Source of the DNA: Lachnospiraceae bacterium
GTDB lineage: Bacteria > Bacillota > Clostridia > Lachnospirales > Lachnospiraceae
DNA: 64,000 bases
Assembly: GCA_017482205.1 (NCBI GenBank)
Contig: JAFUNK010000024.1
Location: 124,001-188,000 of the forward strand
Direction of reading: 5' to 3'
Position 1 is the first letter of the stretch. Each line of letters begins with the position of its first letter. Of this stretch, positions 1,362 through 58,446 are shown one piece after another. The position numbers were made by a program, and so were the translations under genes. The notes below the pieces were generated by a model that saw only the letters and a list, made by a program, of their open reading frames with translations, searched no databases and was not told the origin of the DNA.

Positions 1362-2546
1362 ATGTTTAAAGCATTTTTGATAAAATATGCCGAAATCGGT
1401 GTAAAAGGAAAGAATAGATATTTATTTGAAGATGCACTGGTAAATCAGATAAAGTATGCGCTGAAAAAGTGTGACGGTACTTTTCAGGTGCGTAAAACCC
1501 AGGGACGTATTTATGTAGATGCATTAAGCGAATTTGATTTTGACGAAACCGTAGAGCATTTAAAAAGAGTGTTCGGTATTTCCGGTATTTGTCCGGTAGT
1601 ATATGTGGAGGACGAAGGTTTTGAAAAGCTTTGTGAGGATGTAATTTCTTATATTGATAAGGTATATCCCGACAAGAATAAGACATTCAAGGTACAGTCC
1701 AGAAGAGCACGCAAGAATTATCCCAAGGATTCCATGACCATCAATATGGATTTGGGAGAAGCCATATTAAATGCATATCCTGAAATGCACGTAGATGTGC
1801 ATGAGCCGGATATTATGTTGAATATAGAAGTTAGAGAAAAGATTTATATTTATTCCGAAACTATTCCGGGACCGGGTGGTATGCCTGTGGGCACAGGCGG
1901 TAAGGCAATGTTATTGTTGTCCGGTGGTATTGACTCCCCGGTTGCCGGTTACATGATAGCTAAGAGAGGTGTAAAACTGGATGCAGTATATTTTAATGCA
2001 CCTCCTTATACCAGTGAGAGAGCAAAACAGAAGGTAATTGATTTGGCGAAAATTGTATCCAGATATACCGGACCGATTTATCTGCACATCATCAATTTTA
2101 CCGACATACAGCTTTACATTTATGAGAAATGCCCTCATGAGGAACTGACGATTATTATGCGCCGTTATATGATGCGTATTGCAGAACGCATTGCTCAGGA
2201 AACTGAATGTTTAGGATTGGTAACCGGTGAGAGCATCGGGCAGGTGGCATCCCAGACCATGCACAGTCTGGTGGCAACCAACGAAGTGTGTGAACTGCCG
2301 GTATATCGTCCGTTGATTGGTTTTGACAAGCTGGACATTGTAGACGTATCTGAAAAAATCGGTACGTATGAAACTTCTATTCTGCCCTATGAGGACTGCT
2401 GTACTATCTTTGTGGCAAAGCATCCCGTAACCAAACCCAGTCTGAAGGTTATCCGCAGACATGAAGAAAATCTGGCAGAAAAGATTGACGAAATGGTGGA
2501 AGAAGCTATCCGTACCGACGAACTGATTATAGTAAGTGAATCCTAA
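1362..2546 (+). CDS. thiI: ThiI, tRNA 4-thiouridine synthetase
   Basis: 394 aa. It adenylates U8 of tRNA and replaces its oxygen with sulfur from the desulfurase encoded just upstream; some homologues also feed thiazole synthesis. The N-terminal ferredoxin-like and THUMP regions cover about residues 1-165, followed by the PP-loop ATP pyrophosphatase motif SGGIDSP at 187-193. There is no C-terminal rhodanese domain, so this is the short Firmicute form. A Cys pair at 346-347 (EDCC) lies where a sulfur-accepting cysteine could be. GAGGAGAAC precedes the ATG. Downstream come a palindromic repeat element and a bidirectional terminator. Confidence 0.95.
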   Translation: MFKAFLIKYAEIGVKGKNRYLFEDALVNQIKYALKKCDGTFQVRKTQGRIYVDALSEFDFDETVEHLKRVFGISGICPVVYVEDEGFEKLCEDVISYIDKVYPDKNKTFKVQSRRARKNYPKDSMTINMDLGEAILNAYPEMHVDVHEPDIMLNIEVREKIYIYSETIPGPGGMPVGTGGKAMLLLSGGIDSPVAGYMIAKRGVKLDAVYFNAPPYTSERAKQKVIDLAKIVSRYTGPIYLHIINFTDIQLYIYEKCPHEELTIIMRRYMMRIAERIAQETECLGLVTGESIGQVASQTMHSLVATNEVCELPVYRPLIGFDKLDIVDVSEKIGTYETSILPYEDCCTIFVAKHPVTKPSLKVIRRHEENLAEKIDEMVEEAIRTDELIIVSES

Positions 2547-2555
2547 AAGGAGAAA

Positions 2556-2748
2556 ATGCCTGAAAACAGCGGATGGGAATTGCGGTTACAAAAAGTTTTC
2601 CGGCGCAGACCTTTAGCGAACGCCGGCACTTAACGAAAATATCTCGAAGAGATAATTTGAGTTTAGTACCGCTGCGTTTGGTACGAGCGCAAGCGTGTCT
2701 GCAAGGAAACTTTTTTAACTGCAATTCCCAGCCACTGTTTTTAGGCAT
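2556..2748 (+). repeat. Large palindromic intergenic element, copy E1
   Basis: Imperfect palindrome of 193 nt directly after the thiI stop. The outer arms (2556-2604 with 2703-2748) pair over most of their length, for example ATGCCT with AGGCAT and GGGAATTGC with GCAATTCCC. The core runs 2605-2702, closed by GCAGAC/GTCTGC. Inside it AACGCCGG pairs with CCGCTGCGTT (CT bulge), a GAA-loop hairpin lies near 2640-2652, and a small hairpin with a GCAA (GNRA) loop lies near 2686-2695. The same core recurs at 29115-29308 (- strand), 56986-57162 (+) and 58238-58422 (-). The strand given is the one showing GNRA loops. The short reading frames across it are by-products of the palindrome. Confidence 0.8.
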
Positions 2749-2756
2749 CCGCGATG

Positions 2757-2805
2757 ACAAAAAAAGAACACCGTGAAAATTCCGGTGTTCTGCTTTTTCT
2801 CTTTT
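2757..2805. terminator. Bidirectional intrinsic terminator between thiI and the HPr-like gene
   Basis: Stem AGAACACCG (2765-2773) pairs with CGGTGTTCT (2783-2791), followed by CTTTTTCTCTTTT on the + strand and preceded by an A run that gives a T run on the - strand. It can end both the thiI transcript and the convergent HPr-like gene. Confidence 0.8.
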
Positions 2806-2827
2806 ACTCAATTTAAGTATGAGATGA

Positions 2828-3058
2828 TTAGATCAGGTAAGGCTTTAATGCTTCCATTACATCATCGATGTTGTCTTCTGCATGGATATTTAAGTCGATG
2901 GGCTTAGATAAATCCAAGCTGAAGATACCCATGATGGACTTTGCATCGATTACGTATCTGCCGGATACCAGGTCGAAATCATAATCGAACTTTGTAATAT
3001 CATTAACAAAAGATTTTACTTTGTCAATGGAGTTTAAAGAAATCTGAACTGCTTTCAT
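2828..3058 (-). CDS. HPr-like protein lacking the phosphorylatable histidine
   Basis: 76 aa, about the size of HPr. The second half (AKSIMGIFSLDLSKPIDLNI) aligns well with the conserved HPr region around Ser46 (AKSLF-L-LGL-G). The N-terminal GLHxRPA loop, which carries His15, is replaced by SLNSIDKVKS with no histidine. It therefore probably cannot carry phosphate in the PTS and may instead be regulatory, for example by binding partners through the HPr fold; that is inference. AAAGGAGG precedes the ATG and a good sigma-A promoter lies upstream. It is monocistronic, convergent with thiI and divergent from mtaB. A complete HPr with His15 is encoded at 50874-51137. Confidence 0.7.
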   Translation of the reverse strand: MKAVQISLNSIDKVKSFVNDITKFDYDFDLVSGRYVIDAKSIMGIFSLDLSKPIDLNIHAEDNIDDVMEALKPYLI

Positions 3059-29106: not shown

Positions 29107-29114
29107 TAAGAGGA

Positions 29115-29308
29115 ATTTGTAAGATAGGAGGGGTGGGTATGGAGCAAAAAGCTTTCCACGCAGACACGCTCGCGCTCCGTGCGAAACGTAGCGGATGCTA
29201 AACTCAACCTGCCCTCTGCGAGGTTGGTTTCGTTAAGCACCGACGTTCCGCAAGGGTCTGCTTAGGAAAGATTTTTGCTCCATGTCCCAACACCACTATT
29301 TTACAAAT
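29115..29308 (-). repeat. Large palindromic intergenic element, copy E2
   Basis: Imperfect palindrome of 194 nt, 8 nt after the ctpA stop. The outer arms pair from ATTTGT (29115-29120) with ACAAAT (29303-29308) inwards, including ATGGAGCAAAAA with TTTTTGCTCCAT. The core (about 29160-29262) is closed by GCAGAC/GTCTGC. On the - strand it reads almost base for base like copy E1, with AACGT pairing ACGTT where E1 has AACGC with GCGTT. The small hairpin has a GCGA (GNRA) loop on the - strand. The central loop is larger than in the other copies. Confidence 0.8.
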
Positions 29309-29310
29309 AC

Positions 29311-30705
29311 CTAGAAGCTGTGGAAGAGAAGTTCCACAGCTTTTTCTATGTGCTCTTTTTTGATACCGGAATAGTTGATAACCAGAGTATGCTCTAGTGA
29401 TTTTTCCTGAACTGAAAAGTATTCACTCAGGCAGGAAATGTGGATGCCGTTGTCGGCGGCTCTTTTTACTAGCTGTGAATCGGAATACTTTGTATTTACT
29501 GTCAATAAAAAATGTAAGCCGGCATTTTCTTCGCGGATGGTTACTTTATCATAGTCAGGGTGCTTTTTGATACAGGAAACAATGGTGTCTCTTTGGGAGC
29601 GGTAATAATTGCGCATACGGTTAATGTGTTTTTCAAAATAACCCTGTTCGATAAATTTGGCTAAAGTGTATTGTTCGAAATTGGAAACGGTGCAGGAATA
29701 GAAATTCAGTTCCTTTTTGTAGCGTTCCATAAGTCCCTTGGGCAATACCATGTAGCTGATACGGATGGTAGGAGTCAGGGTTTTGGAAAAGGTATTCATA
29801 TAAATAATTTTGTCCAACACATCAATGCTCTGTAAAGAAGGAATGGGTTTACCCAAAAGCCGGAACTCGCTGTCATAATCATCTTCAATAATATAGCGGT
29901 CAGGGGTTTGGGAAGCCCATGACAAAAGCTCGTAACGCCGGCTGACAGGGGTGACAAGCCCTGTGGGAAAATGGTGGGAAGGGGAAATGTGCAGTACATC
30001 CGCTTCTGTTTTGTCCAAATATTTTATGTCCACACCGTTTTTGTCTAAAGGAACCGGCACGCAGCTTACCTCGTTGGAACGGTACATCTTACTGATTTTT
30101 TGATAACCGGGGTCTTCTACGGCATACACTTTGTTACGTCCCAGCAATTGGATAATCAGGCTGTATAAATAATCGGTTCCTGCACCTACCACAATCTGTT
30201 CAGGTTCAACAGTCATGCCACGAAACTGAAAAAGATAATCTGCAATGGCATTGCGTAAAGGAGTAATACCCGTAGAAGGAGATCTGACCATAAGCTTATC
30301 TGCTTCATCTGACATGGTTTCCCGCATCAATTTAGTCCATGTGGCAAAAGGAAAGTTGTCTGCGGAGGTGGAATTGTTGACAAAGTCAACAAAAAAAGAA
30401 GGCGTGGGAGTGACTTCGTCAACTAAATGTGCCGGTCGTGGCGTTTCCGTGGCTTTGGTGGAAGAGACGTGGGATACATAATAACCACTTTTTGCCACGG
30501 AGTATATATAACCCTCTGCCATAAGCTGTAAATAGGCATTTTCCACGGTGATGGTGCTGACATTTAAATGCTTTGCCAGTGCCCGCTTGGAGGGAAGTTT
30601 TTCATCAGGAGAAAGCTTGTAGTTTAAGATGTCCTGCCTAATTTGTTTGTAAAGGGATTCGTACAGACTGTCATACCCTTTGTCTTCGAAAGAATAAGTA
30701 AGCAT
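29311..30705 (-). CDS. pdxR: PdxR/MocR-type PLP-dependent regulator
   Basis: 464 aa. A GntR-type winged HTH (about 10-75, with LPSKRALAKHLNVSTITVENAYLQL) is fused to a class I aminotransferase-like domain. The PLP lysine is in NTFSKTLTPT, and the Asp of EDDYDSEFR is also of the fold type I pattern. MocR proteins sense PLP or related amino acids. The divergent neighbour is a pyridoxal/pyridoxamine kinase gene, so PdxR, the vitamin B6 regulator, is the best name. Its final 10 codons overlap the ctpA terminator. Confidence 0.9.
   Translation of the reverse strand: MLTYSFEDKGYDSLYESLYKQIRQDILNYKLSPDEKLPSKRALAKHLNVSTITVENAYLQLMAEGYIYSVAKSGYYVSHVSSTKATETPRPAHLVDEVTPTPSFFVDFVNNSTSADNFPFATWTKLMRETMSDEADKLMVRSPSTGITPLRNAIADYLFQFRGMTVEPEQIVVGAGTDYLYSLIIQLLGRNKVYAVEDPGYQKISKMYRSNEVSCVPVPLDKNGVDIKYLDKTEADVLHISPSHHFPTGLVTPVSRRYELLSWASQTPDRYIIEDDYDSEFRLLGKPIPSLQSIDVLDKIIYMNTFSKTLTPTIRISYMVLPKGLMERYKKELNFYSCTVSNFEQYTLAKFIEQGYFEKHINRMRNYYRSQRDTIVSCIKKHPDYDKVTIREENAGLHFLLTVNTKYSDSQLVKRAADNGIHISCLSEYFSVQEKSLEHTLVINYSGIKKEHIEKAVELLFHSF
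29315..29346 (+). terminator. Terminator of ctpA inside the 3' end of pdxR
   Basis: AGCTGTGGAA (29315-29324) pairs perfectly with TTCCACAGCT (29331-29340 plus one T), then TTTTTC. It lies within the last codons of the convergent pdxR gene, so that coding sequence doubles as the terminator of ctpA. Confidence 0.75.
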
Positions 30706-53002: not shown

Positions 53003-54169
53003 ATGTTTTCTATATTATTAGTTATTATTTATATTGCATTTATTTCACTGGGCCTTCCGGACTCCATATTGGGGTCCGCATGGCCCAGTATGTACGAGGG
53101 ATTACAGGTACCGGTTTCCTATGTAAGTATTCTCTCCATGATTATTTCTGCGGGTACGATTGTGTCCAGTATGTTTTCCGGTAAGTTGATATCGGCACTG
53201 GGAACCGGTAAAGTGACTGCAGTCAGTGTAGGAATGACAGCACTGGCGTTATTTGGATTTTCCTTCTCCTCGTCCTTTTGGATGTTATGTCTGTGGGGAC
53301 TGCCTTACGGCTTGGGAGCAGGAAGTGTGGATGCGGCACTGAATAATTATGTGGCACTGCATTATAAGTCGCGTCATATGAACTGGCTTCATTGTTTTTG
53401 GGGAGTAGGAGCGACGGTGGGACCTTATATTATGGGATTGTGTCTTACAAACAATTTGCACTGGAACAGAGGATACCAGATAATCGGTGTATTGCAGACG
53501 GTGTTAGTGATTGTATTGATTTTCTCCCTGCCGCTTTGGAAGCAGCCTGAAAAAGCAGAGAATGGGGAAGAGAAAAAAGCAACCTCCATGAAGTTTTCCC
53601 AAATTCTTAAAATGAAGGGTGCCAAGAAAATATTGTTTGCATTCTTTTGCTATTGTGCAGTAGAAACAACCGCAGGTTTGTGGGCAAGCAGCTTTTTGGT
53701 ATTTGAAAAGGGAATAGATGCCCAAACGGCAGCAAAATGGGCTTCCCTGTTTTATCTGGGCATTACCGGTGGCAGATTTTTAAGTGGTTTTGTGGCAGAT
53801 AAAATCGGAGATAAAAACATGGTGCGGGCAGGACAGATTTTGTGTCTTGTAAGCGTAGGACTTTTGTTTGTGCCGTTAGGTGTTGGGGTTTCCCTGGTGG
53901 CATTGGTACTGCTGGGTATAGGCTGTGCGCCTATTTACCCCAGTCTGATACATGAAACACCGGAGAACTTCGGACCGGAAAAATCCCAGGCAATTATGGG
54001 AGTGCAGATGGGATGTGCCTATATCGGAACCACCTGCATGCCGGTGGTGTTTGGTGCCATAACCAATTTGACCGGGCTTGGTTTATATCCGATATTTTTA
54101 TTAGTAGTGCTGGTGCTGATGATAGTAGTAATTGAAAGTCTCAATATGGACATGAAAAAGCAGAATTAG
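53003..54169 (+). CDS. MFS transporter
   Basis: 388 aa with about 12 membrane helices. It begins FSILLVIIYIAFISLGLPDSILGSAWP, typical of a subgroup of major facilitator proteins annotated as sugar or drug transporters. The motif A-like GRFLSGFVADKIGDKN lies between the two halves at TM8-9. TCAAGGAG precedes the ATG. The substrate cannot be told. It stands alone, with a bidirectional terminator downstream. Confidence 0.85.
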   Translation: MFSILLVIIYIAFISLGLPDSILGSAWPSMYEGLQVPVSYVSILSMIISAGTIVSSMFSGKLISALGTGKVTAVSVGMTALALFGFSFSSSFWMLCLWGLPYGLGAGSVDAALNNYVALHYKSRHMNWLHCFWGVGATVGPYIMGLCLTNNLHWNRGYQIIGVLQTVLVIVLIFSLPLWKQPEKAENGEEKKATSMKFSQILKMKGAKKILFAFFCYCAVETTAGLWASSFLVFEKGIDAQTAAKWASLFYLGITGGRFLSGFVADKIGDKNMVRAGQILCLVSVGLLFVPLGVGVSLVALVLLGIGCAPIYPSLIHETPENFGPEKSQAIMGVQMGCAYIGTTCMPVVFGAITNLTGLGLYPIFLLVVLVLMIVVIESLNMDMKKQN

Positions 54170-54220
54170 AAATGTTACAGACGCATTAGGAATGCACTAC
54201 TTGGAAATGATTATGAAACT

Positions 54221-54255
54221 AAAAAAGAGAACCGTTTGTAAGCGGTTCTCTTTTT
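54221..54255. terminator. Bidirectional terminator between the MFS and DUF3048 genes
   Basis: AAAAAGAGAACCG pairs with CGGTTCTCTTTTT, loop TTTGTAAG; A and T runs suit both strands. Confidence 0.85.
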
Positions 54256-54264
54256 GCATTCACA

Positions 54265-55446
54265 TTAGTTGTAAACGGGTTCGCAACCTTCCTGTGCTAC
54301 ACCAATATAGGTATGACCTGCATTGATTTCAATTTCGTTACCATCCATATCATAGTATCTGGTAGGAGAGAAATCATCTTCTTTTGTCCAGGTAATCTGA
54401 ATACCACGACCCTGGGTGAAGTACCAGCCCATACGTCCGGAATCGTTGGTCTGGAATTTCAGGTACTTGTTGTCCTCTCTGTATTCCCAAGCGGTATCCT
54501 GAATAATGACGTTAGTAAATGCAAGCTGCTCGCCGGTAGCGGCATCAATCTGCGGTGAACCATACATATATTTCAAGTAAGTACCGGTTGCCTCGTCATA
54601 CTCGAAAGAAGACTTGGTAACAGGGAAAATACCGGTCAAATCAATCTCGGTAGCAGTGAAAGCACCTTCAGCATCTTCAAGGGTGTTGATTTCACCCATG
54701 GGAACGAAGTCAAAGTGATTCGATTCGTATAATGCAGAGGTATGTTCTACATCATACTCCAAAGAGTTGATGGCGCTTAACAATTTCGCACCACTGGTAT
54801 AGCCGTTGTGAGGTGCGGAGTTGTCACCCCAACGGAAGAATGCACCTGCACCTGCTGCGGGAGTTTCAATTGCACTACCTGCACCAACTGCAACAGCGGA
54901 TAAATAATCAAAATCGTCACGTCCGGTTACTTCGCAAAGGTAGTAAGGACCACCCCAGTGAACAAAGATGGCATCCCATTCCATACACCAGTATCCGTAA
55001 TAGTCACGGCCACTGCGGATATTACCGATGGTTTCCATATCATGCCAGTCTTGGATAATACCCATCTGGCGGGACATACTGCCTTCTTCCAGACATTCAT
55101 ATAAAACACCTGCTTCGCCGATACCGTACTGGGGCTGTGCCGCTCTGTCAATAGGGAACATAACAGCAATTGGTCTCTGGGCTGCCAGTTCTTCGTCAAT
55201 CCACTCGTTGGTCAGAGGGCTGTGTACCAGACCCTCCTCGGGGGGGATATCTTCGGGTTCTTCTTCGGTAACAGGAGTAGTAGCTTCCGGAGTAGGGGTA
55301 GCATCCTGAGTTGCAACAGTAGTGTCATTGGGCTGAGCCAAATCACTGGGACGTACAGGAGCATCTGCGTCTTCTGAACCACCACAGCCGCCAAGTGCAA
55401 GCATGGCAGACAGAGATAATAACAGAAGTAATGAATGTTTCTTCAT
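54265..55446 (-). CDS. DUF3048 lipoprotein (YerB-like)
   Basis: 393 aa. A lipoprotein signal ends in LALGGC (Cys21), followed by a Thr/Pro/Glu-rich linker (about 25-75). The DUF3048 domains follow, with RPIAVMFPIDRAAQPQYGIGEA and RSGRDYYGYW seen in YerB. Anchored to the outer face of the membrane, its function is unknown, although it co-occurs with wall metabolism genes. AGAGAGG precedes the ATG. Confidence 0.88.
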   Translation of the reverse strand: MKKHSLLLLLSLSAMLALGGCGGSEDADAPVRPSDLAQPNDTTVATQDATPTPEATTPVTEEEPEDIPPEEGLVHSPLTNEWIDEELAAQRPIAVMFPIDRAAQPQYGIGEAGVLYECLEEGSMSRQMGIIQDWHDMETIGNIRSGRDYYGYWCMEWDAIFVHWGGPYYLCEVTGRDDFDYLSAVAVGAGSAIETPAAGAGAFFRWGDNSAPHNGYTSGAKLLSAINSLEYDVEHTSALYESNHFDFVPMGEINTLEDAEGAFTATEIDLTGIFPVTKSSFEYDEATGTYLKYMYGSPQIDAATGEQLAFTNVIIQDTAWEYREDNKYLKFQTNDSGRMGWYFTQGRGIQITWTKEDDFSPTRYYDMDGNEIEINAGHTYIGVAQEGCEPVYN

Positions 55447-56944: not shown

Positions 56945-56985
56945 GCATTTGTGAATTGGAAAAATAATATAATTTTTATATTGAG

Positions 56986-57162
56986 TAGGTTGCTTGGAAA
57001 GCGTATCGTTGCTATATATTCCACGCAAGGACCGTTAGGGAACGCCGGTCCTTAGTATGCGTATAAAGCGAAGCTTTGCATACTTAGTACCGTTGCGTTT
57101 CCTGTCGAGCGAAAGCGAGTCCGGCGGGGAATATATAGCAACGATAGTGAAACAACAACCTA
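56986..57162 (+). repeat. Large palindromic intergenic element, copy E3, in the gmd leader
   Basis: Imperfect palindrome of 177 nt ending 13 nt before the gmd ATG. The outer arms pair TAGGTTG (56986-56992) with CAACCTA (57156-57162), and TATCGTTGCTATATATTCC with its full complement ending at 57145. The core has AACGCCGGT pairing ACCGTTGCGTT (TT bulge), a long central hairpin with a GAA loop (GTATGC...GCATAC around AAAGC-GAA-GCTTT), and a small hairpin with a GAAA (GNRA) loop at about 57109-57116. It is the copy with the most divergent core but the best-paired arms. Confidence 0.8.
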
Positions 57163-57175
57163 AGAAAGGGTAAAG

Positions 57176-58243
57176 ATGAGTAAAACAGCACTTATTACAG
57201 GTATTACAGGGCAGGATGGTTCTTATCTTGCGGAATTTTTATTAGAAAAAGGATATGAAGTACACGGTATTATCCGTCGTCACAGTACAGAAAATCTGGA
57301 CAGACTGGATGGAGTTTTAAAGTCTGAATATAACAATACAAAATTCTTTTTACATTACGGAGATTTAACGGACTCCAGTAATTTGATTCGATTGGTGGCA
57401 GAGATTAAACCTTCCGAGGTGTACAATCTGGCAGCACAGTCCCATGTGGGTATTTCTTTTGAAGTGCCGGAGTATACAGCGGAGGCAACCGGTGTGGGTA
57501 CGCTGAAACTTTTGGAGGCAATCAGACTTTGGGGCGGAGAATGCCGTTTTTATCAGGCGTCTACTTCTGAACTGTTTGGCGGTTTACCTGAAACTGCACC
57601 CCAGAGCGAGAAAACCCCGTTTTATCCTAAGAGCCCTTATGGTGTAGCAAAATTGTATTCTTATTGGATTACTGTAAATTATAGAGAATCTTACAATATG
57701 TTTGCCTGCAACGGTATTTTGTTTAACCATGAGTCCCCCAGAAGAGGTGAAAATTTTGTAACCCGTAAAATTACATTAGCAATTGCTAATATCATGGCGG
57801 GTAAGCAGGAAAAATTGTCTCTGGGTAATATGGATGCTAAGCGTGACTGGGGCTTTGCGGGAGATTATGTGAAAGGTATGTGGATGATGTTGCAGCAGGA
57901 TAAGCCCGGTGATTATGTACTGGCTACCGGACAGACCCATACGGTTCGTGAATTTGTGGAAGAAAGCTTTAAGAACCTGGGGATAACTATTCGCTGGGAA
58001 GGCACCGGCGTGGAGGAAAAAGGCTATGATGTCAAAACGGGAAAACTGCTTGTAGATGTGAACCCTGTATTTTACAGACCTGCAGAAGTAGAGTTTTTGT
58101 GGGGCGATGCTACCAAGGCAGAAACAGAACTGGGATGGCAGCGAGAGATTGGTTTTAAAGAATTGGCAGCCATGATGATGGATGCGGATATGAAGGCGGT
58201 TGCCGGTATGAGTTGTGAGGAGTTTAGGAATATTGAGAAATAA
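57176..58243 (+). CDS. gmd: GDP-mannose 4,6-dehydratase
   Basis: 355 aa NAD(P)-dependent SDR enzyme that makes GDP-4-keto-6-deoxymannose. The nucleotide-binding loop is [21 protein letters not shown] is a Gmd motif, and the catalytic Tyr/Lys are in [25 protein letters not shown] binds GDP-sugar. AAAGGG precedes the ATG. With fcl downstream it makes GDP-L-fucose. The gene is bracketed by two oppositely oriented copies (E3, E4) of the palindromic element, the second starting in its last codon. Confidence 0.96.
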
Positions 58244-58422
58244 GTAGGTGTTGCAGTCACCTTGAAAAATTTCCTCACAGACGCGCTTTCGCTCCGTGCC
58301 AAACGTAGCGGACACTAAGCTCGCAGGCGAAATTCTTTCGCCTGATACCTCGCTAAGTGCCGACGTTTGCCAAGGGTCTTTAGAGGAAAGCTTTTCAAGG
58401 CAGTAGCAAGCATACTTAGTTT
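58238..58422 (-). repeat. Large palindromic intergenic element, copy E4, between gmd and fcl
   Basis: Imperfect palindrome of 185 nt whose left arm begins in the gmd stop (AAATAAGTA, 58238-58246) and pairs with TACTTAGTTT (58413-58422). Inner arms CCTTGAAAA and TTTTCAAGG are fully complementary. On the - strand the core reads like E1 and E2, with AACGT/ACGTT and CACT/AGTG pairs, a long central hairpin (AGGCGAAA-GAA-TTTCGCCT) and a GAAA (GNRA) tetraloop hairpin. It lies inside the probable gmd-fcl transcript. Confidence 0.8.
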
Positions 58423-58446
58423 TCAATATGGAGGATGGATAATAAG

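Follow-up and report, generated by a model that had tools for sequence, protein, structure and literature searches.

Four large palindromes with a common core of about 100 nt lie within a single 64,000-nt stretch of a Lachnospiraceae genome (the window), and the question is whether they are copies of a mobile DNA element or members of a structured RNA family. An earlier note, made from the letters alone, had described the four copies (E1 to E4) and named both options. Reading and aligning the window bore out the copies and their core, with E1 and E3 on the plus strand and E2 and E4 on the minus strand. The limits given for E1 were exact, whereas the palindromes of E2, E3 and E4 reach further out than described, with weaker pairing at their ends. 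The features are as follows.

2556..2748, plus strand: E1, full palindromic element (core match 2593-2712, 120.7 bits)
2607..2700, plus strand: conserved E1 core (AGAC to GTCT), comprising a long helix with a YT bulge, two mismatches (C.A and T.T), an apical stem and a side hairpin
2687..2694, plus strand: GNRA side hairpin of E1, GC-GCAA-GC, assigned from the sequence and the family statistic
29111..29312, minus strand: E2, full element (core match 29150-29273, 117.5 bits)
56968..57182, plus strand: E3, element (core match 57015-57134, 93.7 bits)
58230..58429, minus strand: E4, element (core match 58267-58393, 108.9 bits)

E1 starts 9 nt past the end of a thiI-like gene (1362-2546), and E2 has as neighbours a gene for a C-terminal processing peptidase and, on the opposite strand, a pdxR-like gene. 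E3, in which firm pairing is confined to 56986-57162, has an AraC-type regulator gene and gmd as its flanks, and E4 sits between gmd and fcl. Because the E4 palindrome overlaps the last codons and the stop of gmd at 58230-58243 (stop at 58241-58243), one E4 arm pairs with coding sequence. Over the stretches delimited in the earlier note, the RNA folding energies of E1, E2, E3 and E4 are -92.9, -91.7, -87.3 and -76.8 kcal/mol, with folding z of -10.15, -9.24, -10.31 and -6.73, and for each none of 200 shuffles folded as well. No terminator-like site was detected around E1 within 2300-3000, and by eye none of E2, E3 and E4 lies inside a canonical terminator. The comparison with Rfam matched no family to the element: a scan of the window at the gathering cut-off returned tRNA as the sole match, and for three loci at E up to 5 there were two weak matches, both outside the cores. 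The window also holds a 393-aa open reading frame (54265-55446, minus strand) without any NCBIfam match.

A covariance-model search, which the earlier note had proposed as a check, brought up many further copies in the genome and in its relatives. In the own genome, whose assembly is 2.16 Mb and 73.7% complete, a core pattern with at most two mismatches found at least 41 copies; the same search matched 8 of 41 genomes, with 74 matches in genome G017 and 8 in G016. The covariance model of the core, built from 23 own-genome copies, matched 57 of the 81 genomes in the genus, with no more than 43 candidates scored in each, and genome G097 had 143 matches among 150 candidates scored. Across the family, 117 of 299 genomes and 116 of 298 genera were matched (at most 11 candidates scored per genome), while a search across the class matched 7 of 291 genomes, all seven within the same family. 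Going by the named matches (at least 113 stretches), this host family is Lachnospiraceae. Carriers named among the matches listed are Butyrivibrio proteoclasticus P18, Butyrivibrio and Lachnospiraceae MAGs, Candidatus Fimimorpha excrementavium, besides a single MAG submitted under the name Blautia. Viral contigs held no exact match to the core pattern, E1 had no match among plasmids, and the E2 core had none among phages. Matches to this protein-less repeat, with its strongly conserved and covarying fold, span about two fifths of the genera sampled from a major gut family.

E1 to E4 probably belong to a large family of non-autonomous, MITE-like mobile DNA elements that fold back on themselves and whose ends decide mobility in trans. 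The element is about 180-270 bp long, occurs in many dispersed copies and has no coding potential that we could see. Each copy would form one long fold-back, made of host-specific terminal inverted repeats, fast-changing inner arms and a near-constant core of ~100 nt, and it is apparently the ends, not the core, that set mobility, in trans, via a putative transposase. The mobile-element option of the earlier note is supported by presence and absence of copies between sister species, by target duplications in two host lineages, by a nested insertion and by core-less derivatives.

Syntenic sites of G097 and G017, which are about 91-96% identical in the stretches compared, differ by presence or absence of the element. 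At five such sites the element carries a core, one in G097 and four in G017. In the repeats around these copies roughly a quarter of the bases differ by eye, against ~5% in the flanks, and because the flanking duplications are imperfect, some absences may be losses via deletion between the repeats. The G097 site corresponding to E1 has no element-length insert, and the flanks there are 81-85% identical. A further candidate empty site (locus L145 against L242) was rejected as a deletion remnant. At another locus (L143, contig C7 of G017, about 53145-54641), an element end is directly adjoined by an insertion of ~1.5 kb that G097 lacks and whose flanks overlap by 9 bp.

Copies have terminal inverted repeats in common, namely TAGGTAATTGCGAAAC in G017 and G097, GGGCTGTTGCAAAATA in part of the own-genome copies and CAATGTCATTTAG in genome G048. 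Since the ends vary this greatly among hosts, the view of one family rests on the core. For 142 end pairs of G017 and G097 with TAGGTAATTGCGAAAC, some of them probably spurious, the direct flank score was at least 9 in 9 (0.6 expected), and the inverted score reached this level in none. The direct repeats are ~12 bp long by eye, often with one to three mismatches. In G048, a direct score of at least 9 was found for 5 of 21 elements versus 0.0 expected, a set that excludes 5 elements without recognised ends; among the nine direct repeats scoring at least 7, two are not located at the ends, and a third (L077) is a word complementary to itself. No target duplication was found in the own genome, where the mean score over 29 end pairs was 3.8 versus 4.0 and a direct score of at least 8 occurred in none versus 0.4 expected. 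For this reason we call the element MITE-like and do not assign it to a named MITE family.

In G048 (locus L325), one copy has inserted into the side hairpin of a second copy and is bordered left and right by ACATAGAGCG; it is a filled site within recognisable sequence. Four core-less copies of 73 bp occur in the own genome (L259, L260, L261 and L263) and have one common deletion junction by eye, and the core-less short elements L229 and L240 of G017 and G097 have the same ends as core-bearing copies. As these derivatives have spread, the ends appear sufficient for spread; the core nevertheless seems to matter for it, because core-bearing copies outnumber core-less ones in the own genome.

A second short palindromic element, which we call type C (L152 2361-2917, L237, L241 and L245, in G017 and G097), has an interior with GACAAAATAAGGGCGACTTGCC and the same ends. 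It often lies some 11-19 nt from a core-bearing element, giving A-C-A rows by eye. In G097, 26 core pairs stand head to head (minus then plus) less than 400 nt apart, as at L152 2409-2516 and 2762-2869, and none stand tail to tail.

In G048, copies are frequently found within hairpins. Among the 21 copies with recognised ends, the inverted flank score was at least 9 in 9 versus 0.31 expected, and 13 copies lay within hairpins (inverted score of at least 7; 1.76 expected). Eleven of these 13 are terminator-like, with a T-run after or an A-run before the element, and none has the opposite arrangement alone. In some copies it is the loop of the terminator that is duplicated (GGGCATAGGTC in L087, GACGCAAGT in L088). 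At L081, also in G048, about 25 nt of flank recur inverted across the element, and one side is apparently coding. In the own genome an A-run before or a T-run after the element was found in 15 of 25 cases versus 2 of 25 for the opposite, or 13 of 19 versus 1 of 19 without six end pairs judged spurious by eye. These counts use terminal-repeat ends, as automatic arms run into the A and T runs, a switch chosen after a negative result: automatic arm ends gave no excess of the terminator signature in any of five groups (terminator side versus opposite, 17 vs 15 of 38 in the own genome, 6 vs 4 of 19 in G048, 9 vs 10 of 20 in G017, 3 vs 9 of 17 in G097 and 15 vs 16 of 50 in the others). No hairpin-loop targeting was seen in G017 and G097, where inverted flank scores are at the null and T- or A-runs stand on the terminator side in 6 of 41 versus 16 of 41 on the other side.

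At ten loci chosen for having a terminator-like stem, folding predictions for either strand retain the pairing of this stem, with 6 of 8 bases in the worst case. The fold-back of the element would bring the two halves of the terminator stem together again, so that insertion would do little harm in either orientation. Copies could then accumulate, and paired arms would be favoured without favouring one strand. Should terminator loops be its harbour, the element would illustrate how mobile DNA can multiply in a compact genome while leaving genes intact, and would account for the locus-specific palindromes around such repeats.

The same hairpins admit a second reading, which we regard as a tentative possibility: that the constant piece is a core unit of about 130 nt, from TTCC to GGAA, which together with its close arms inserts into hairpin loops. 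The outer arms would then be partly captured target stem. The targets would be loops of terminators, of other palindromic repeats and even of the element's own side hairpin, as at L325, and terminators would be safe harbours because the fold of the element keeps the target hairpin working.

The part common to all hosts is the core. From the cores collected we aligned 53 diverse ones, one or a few per genome, with MAFFT and predicted the structure on the same alignment. It comprises 29 pairs, with 94.7% of cells paired, and 23 of the 29 pairs show compensatory change. The core covariation of 0.450 exceeds the shuffle mean of 0.160 and that of slid versions (at most 0.129), the two controls used for the covariation check that the earlier note had proposed. 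The core consists of the stem AGAC/GTCT, a helix formed by NNNNAACGYCGG and CCGYTRCGTTNNNN that carries a YT bulge of two bases, the block CTTA/TTAG, an apical stem that varies, and the side hairpin GC-GNRA-GC. The change from AACGC/GCGTT to AACGT/ACGTT, reported from the four window copies, is real and covarying (UA in 41, CG in 9, UG in 1 and unpaired in 2 of the 53 cores). For the next block, pairing had been said to be always kept; this goes slightly too far, as CACT/AGTA has a C.A mismatch; in copies with a bulged T the pair is C-G or T-A. The T-T mismatch in CTTA/TTAG extends beyond the four copies, as neither T column varies in any of the 53 cores.

The arms behave differently, being paired within each copy and differing among copies. 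Copy pairs with cores at least 95% alike have arms that are on average 63-71% alike, versus 49% for random sequence (three genomes, with 3, 42 and 28 copy pairs). In 174 elements (183 unique matches of 200, minus overlapping opposite-strand matches), the arm mismatches comprised 297 G.T and 323 A.C, and the 88 isolated ones 24 G.T and 38 A.C. Since A.C is as frequent as G.T, arm pairing is not maintained via selection on one RNA strand. Of 24 copies tried between G097 and G017, 9 gave a through-alignment, and at these orthologous loci the substitutions per site were 0.068 in the core (54/789), 0.108 in the arms (111/1029), 0.045 in the terminal repeats (40/888) and 0.051 in the flanks (309/6102). 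An apical piece of ~19-22 nt is variably present or absent. Several arm changes arrive as paired blocks, a pattern expected from gene conversion between copies, and at C33:29515 the G097 inner arms equal, by eye, those of another G097 copy. Gene conversion would thus swap both cores and arms between copies. Because such exchange also transfers paired arms, selection for the fold is not established for the outer arms. The claim of the earlier note that a fold is selected stands for the core, family-wide.

These observations bring in a third reading, an ordinary old MITE whose arms are complementary only via template switching and gene conversion and whose core looks conserved through recent source copies. 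The near-equal A.C and G.T counts in the arms, the exchange of arm and core blocks at orthologous loci and a core that changes no more slowly than its flanks all agree with it. However, the same core positions, bulge and mismatch recur in 53 diverse cores with covariation in most pairs, and a model from one genome finds the core in more than a hundred genera. Recency within one genome fails to explain a family-wide core on which diverse cores and genera agree, and we consider this reading rather unlikely. Within the proposed MITE-like family, the core is constant across genera yet changes ordinarily at single loci, which suggests selection on source copies; the core presumably serves the element as a whole rather than the individual locus.

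The strand on which the core folds bears on a further alternative, that of a host-functional structured RNA (a 3'-UTR element, regulator or small RNA) repeated by chance. A GNRA loop is found in 147 of 155 unique 3' ends, with four other or unclear loops and four failing the hairpin rule, and its retention on one strand suggests that this strand is the one that folds. Wobbles in one core helix are 37 G.T versus 12 A.C (73 unique), and over the 29 pairs of the 53 cores 51 G.T versus 26 A.C, which agrees mildly with a single-strand fold of the core; a single pair, however, supplies 17 of the 51 G.T. The fixed bulge and T.T mismatch across the 53 cores also speak for a structured RNA. Against a host RNA, orientation relative to the flanking genes is mixed among 39 intergenic pattern matches (8 (+,+), 16 (-,-), 5 (+,-) and 10 (-,+)), the core changes as fast as the flanks at the nine loci of the sister species, and these species differ in which sites hold a copy. 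The structured RNA that the earlier note had entertained is thus not favoured in a host-encoded form, which we judge improbable.

The enzyme that would move the element was sought in the same genomes. The searched patterns and contigs, from incomplete assemblies, yielded no autonomous element that shares these ends. Stitched contigs gave 16 end pairs 0.6-3 kb apart, covered by nine intervals. Their content resembles what we take to be ordinary host genes, and the intervals were rejected as autonomous elements. PF05598 (DUF772) transposases were absent from the own genome, G048, G072, G043 and G097. An IS1182/IS1272-type transposase was rejected as the mobiliser, as only two were found (in G017), in surroundings without matching ends.

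REP/REPIN-type palindromes moved by a Y1 (RAYT) transposase are also palindromic, intergenic and multi-copy, and the 26 head-to-head pairs of G097 recall REPIN doublets, yet this origin is very improbable, and is rejected for high-copy genomes, as Y1_Tnp occurs in 30 of 81 genomes and is missing from the assemblies of 8 among the 9 genomes with at least 41 matches, and as the target duplications do not fit.

Among known elements, Correia/NEMIS, ERIC and RUP-type MITEs have small TA-type target duplications; compared by description, the present element differs in its duplications of about 9-12 bp, its folded core, shared across the family, and its host-dependent ends. According to the passages of PMC2229807 that treat them, these and other bacterial MITEs are likewise non-autonomous, with terminal inverted repeats, fold-back transcripts and target duplication, and they typically end in TA. 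The same passages describe YPAL/RU-2 of Yersinia, a repeated palindrome of 168 bp whose targets span or adjoin dyad symmetry and are duplicated over 3-26 bp (PMC2229807). Our element resembles it in being a repeated palindrome with dyad-symmetry targets and target duplication. By description, it differs in that the inverted repeats of YPAL are internal and that a folded core bearing a GNRA side hairpin goes unmentioned in those passages (PMC2229807). IS1272, as portrayed in the relevant part of PMC5678879, targets inverted-repeat structures without duplication. The own-genome copies are similar to IS1272/IS1182 in lacking duplications and in often lying between an A-run and a T-run; IS1272 differs in encoding a transposase and replacing the target inverted repeat, by the same account (PMC5678879). 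No such Lachnospiraceae repeat was found among the best-ranked matches of the literature searched, a scope that was mainly open literature and included the repeat, intergenic and transposase passages of the Butyrivibrio genome papers PMC2914790 and PMC5716241.

The element also has a practical side, as its copies end many contigs of one Fimimorpha MAG. In this assembly (Candidatus Fimimorpha MAG DVJD; loci L118, L122, L157, L163, L174 and others), many contigs terminate inside the element, and the copies are therefore probably near-identical and break the assembly.
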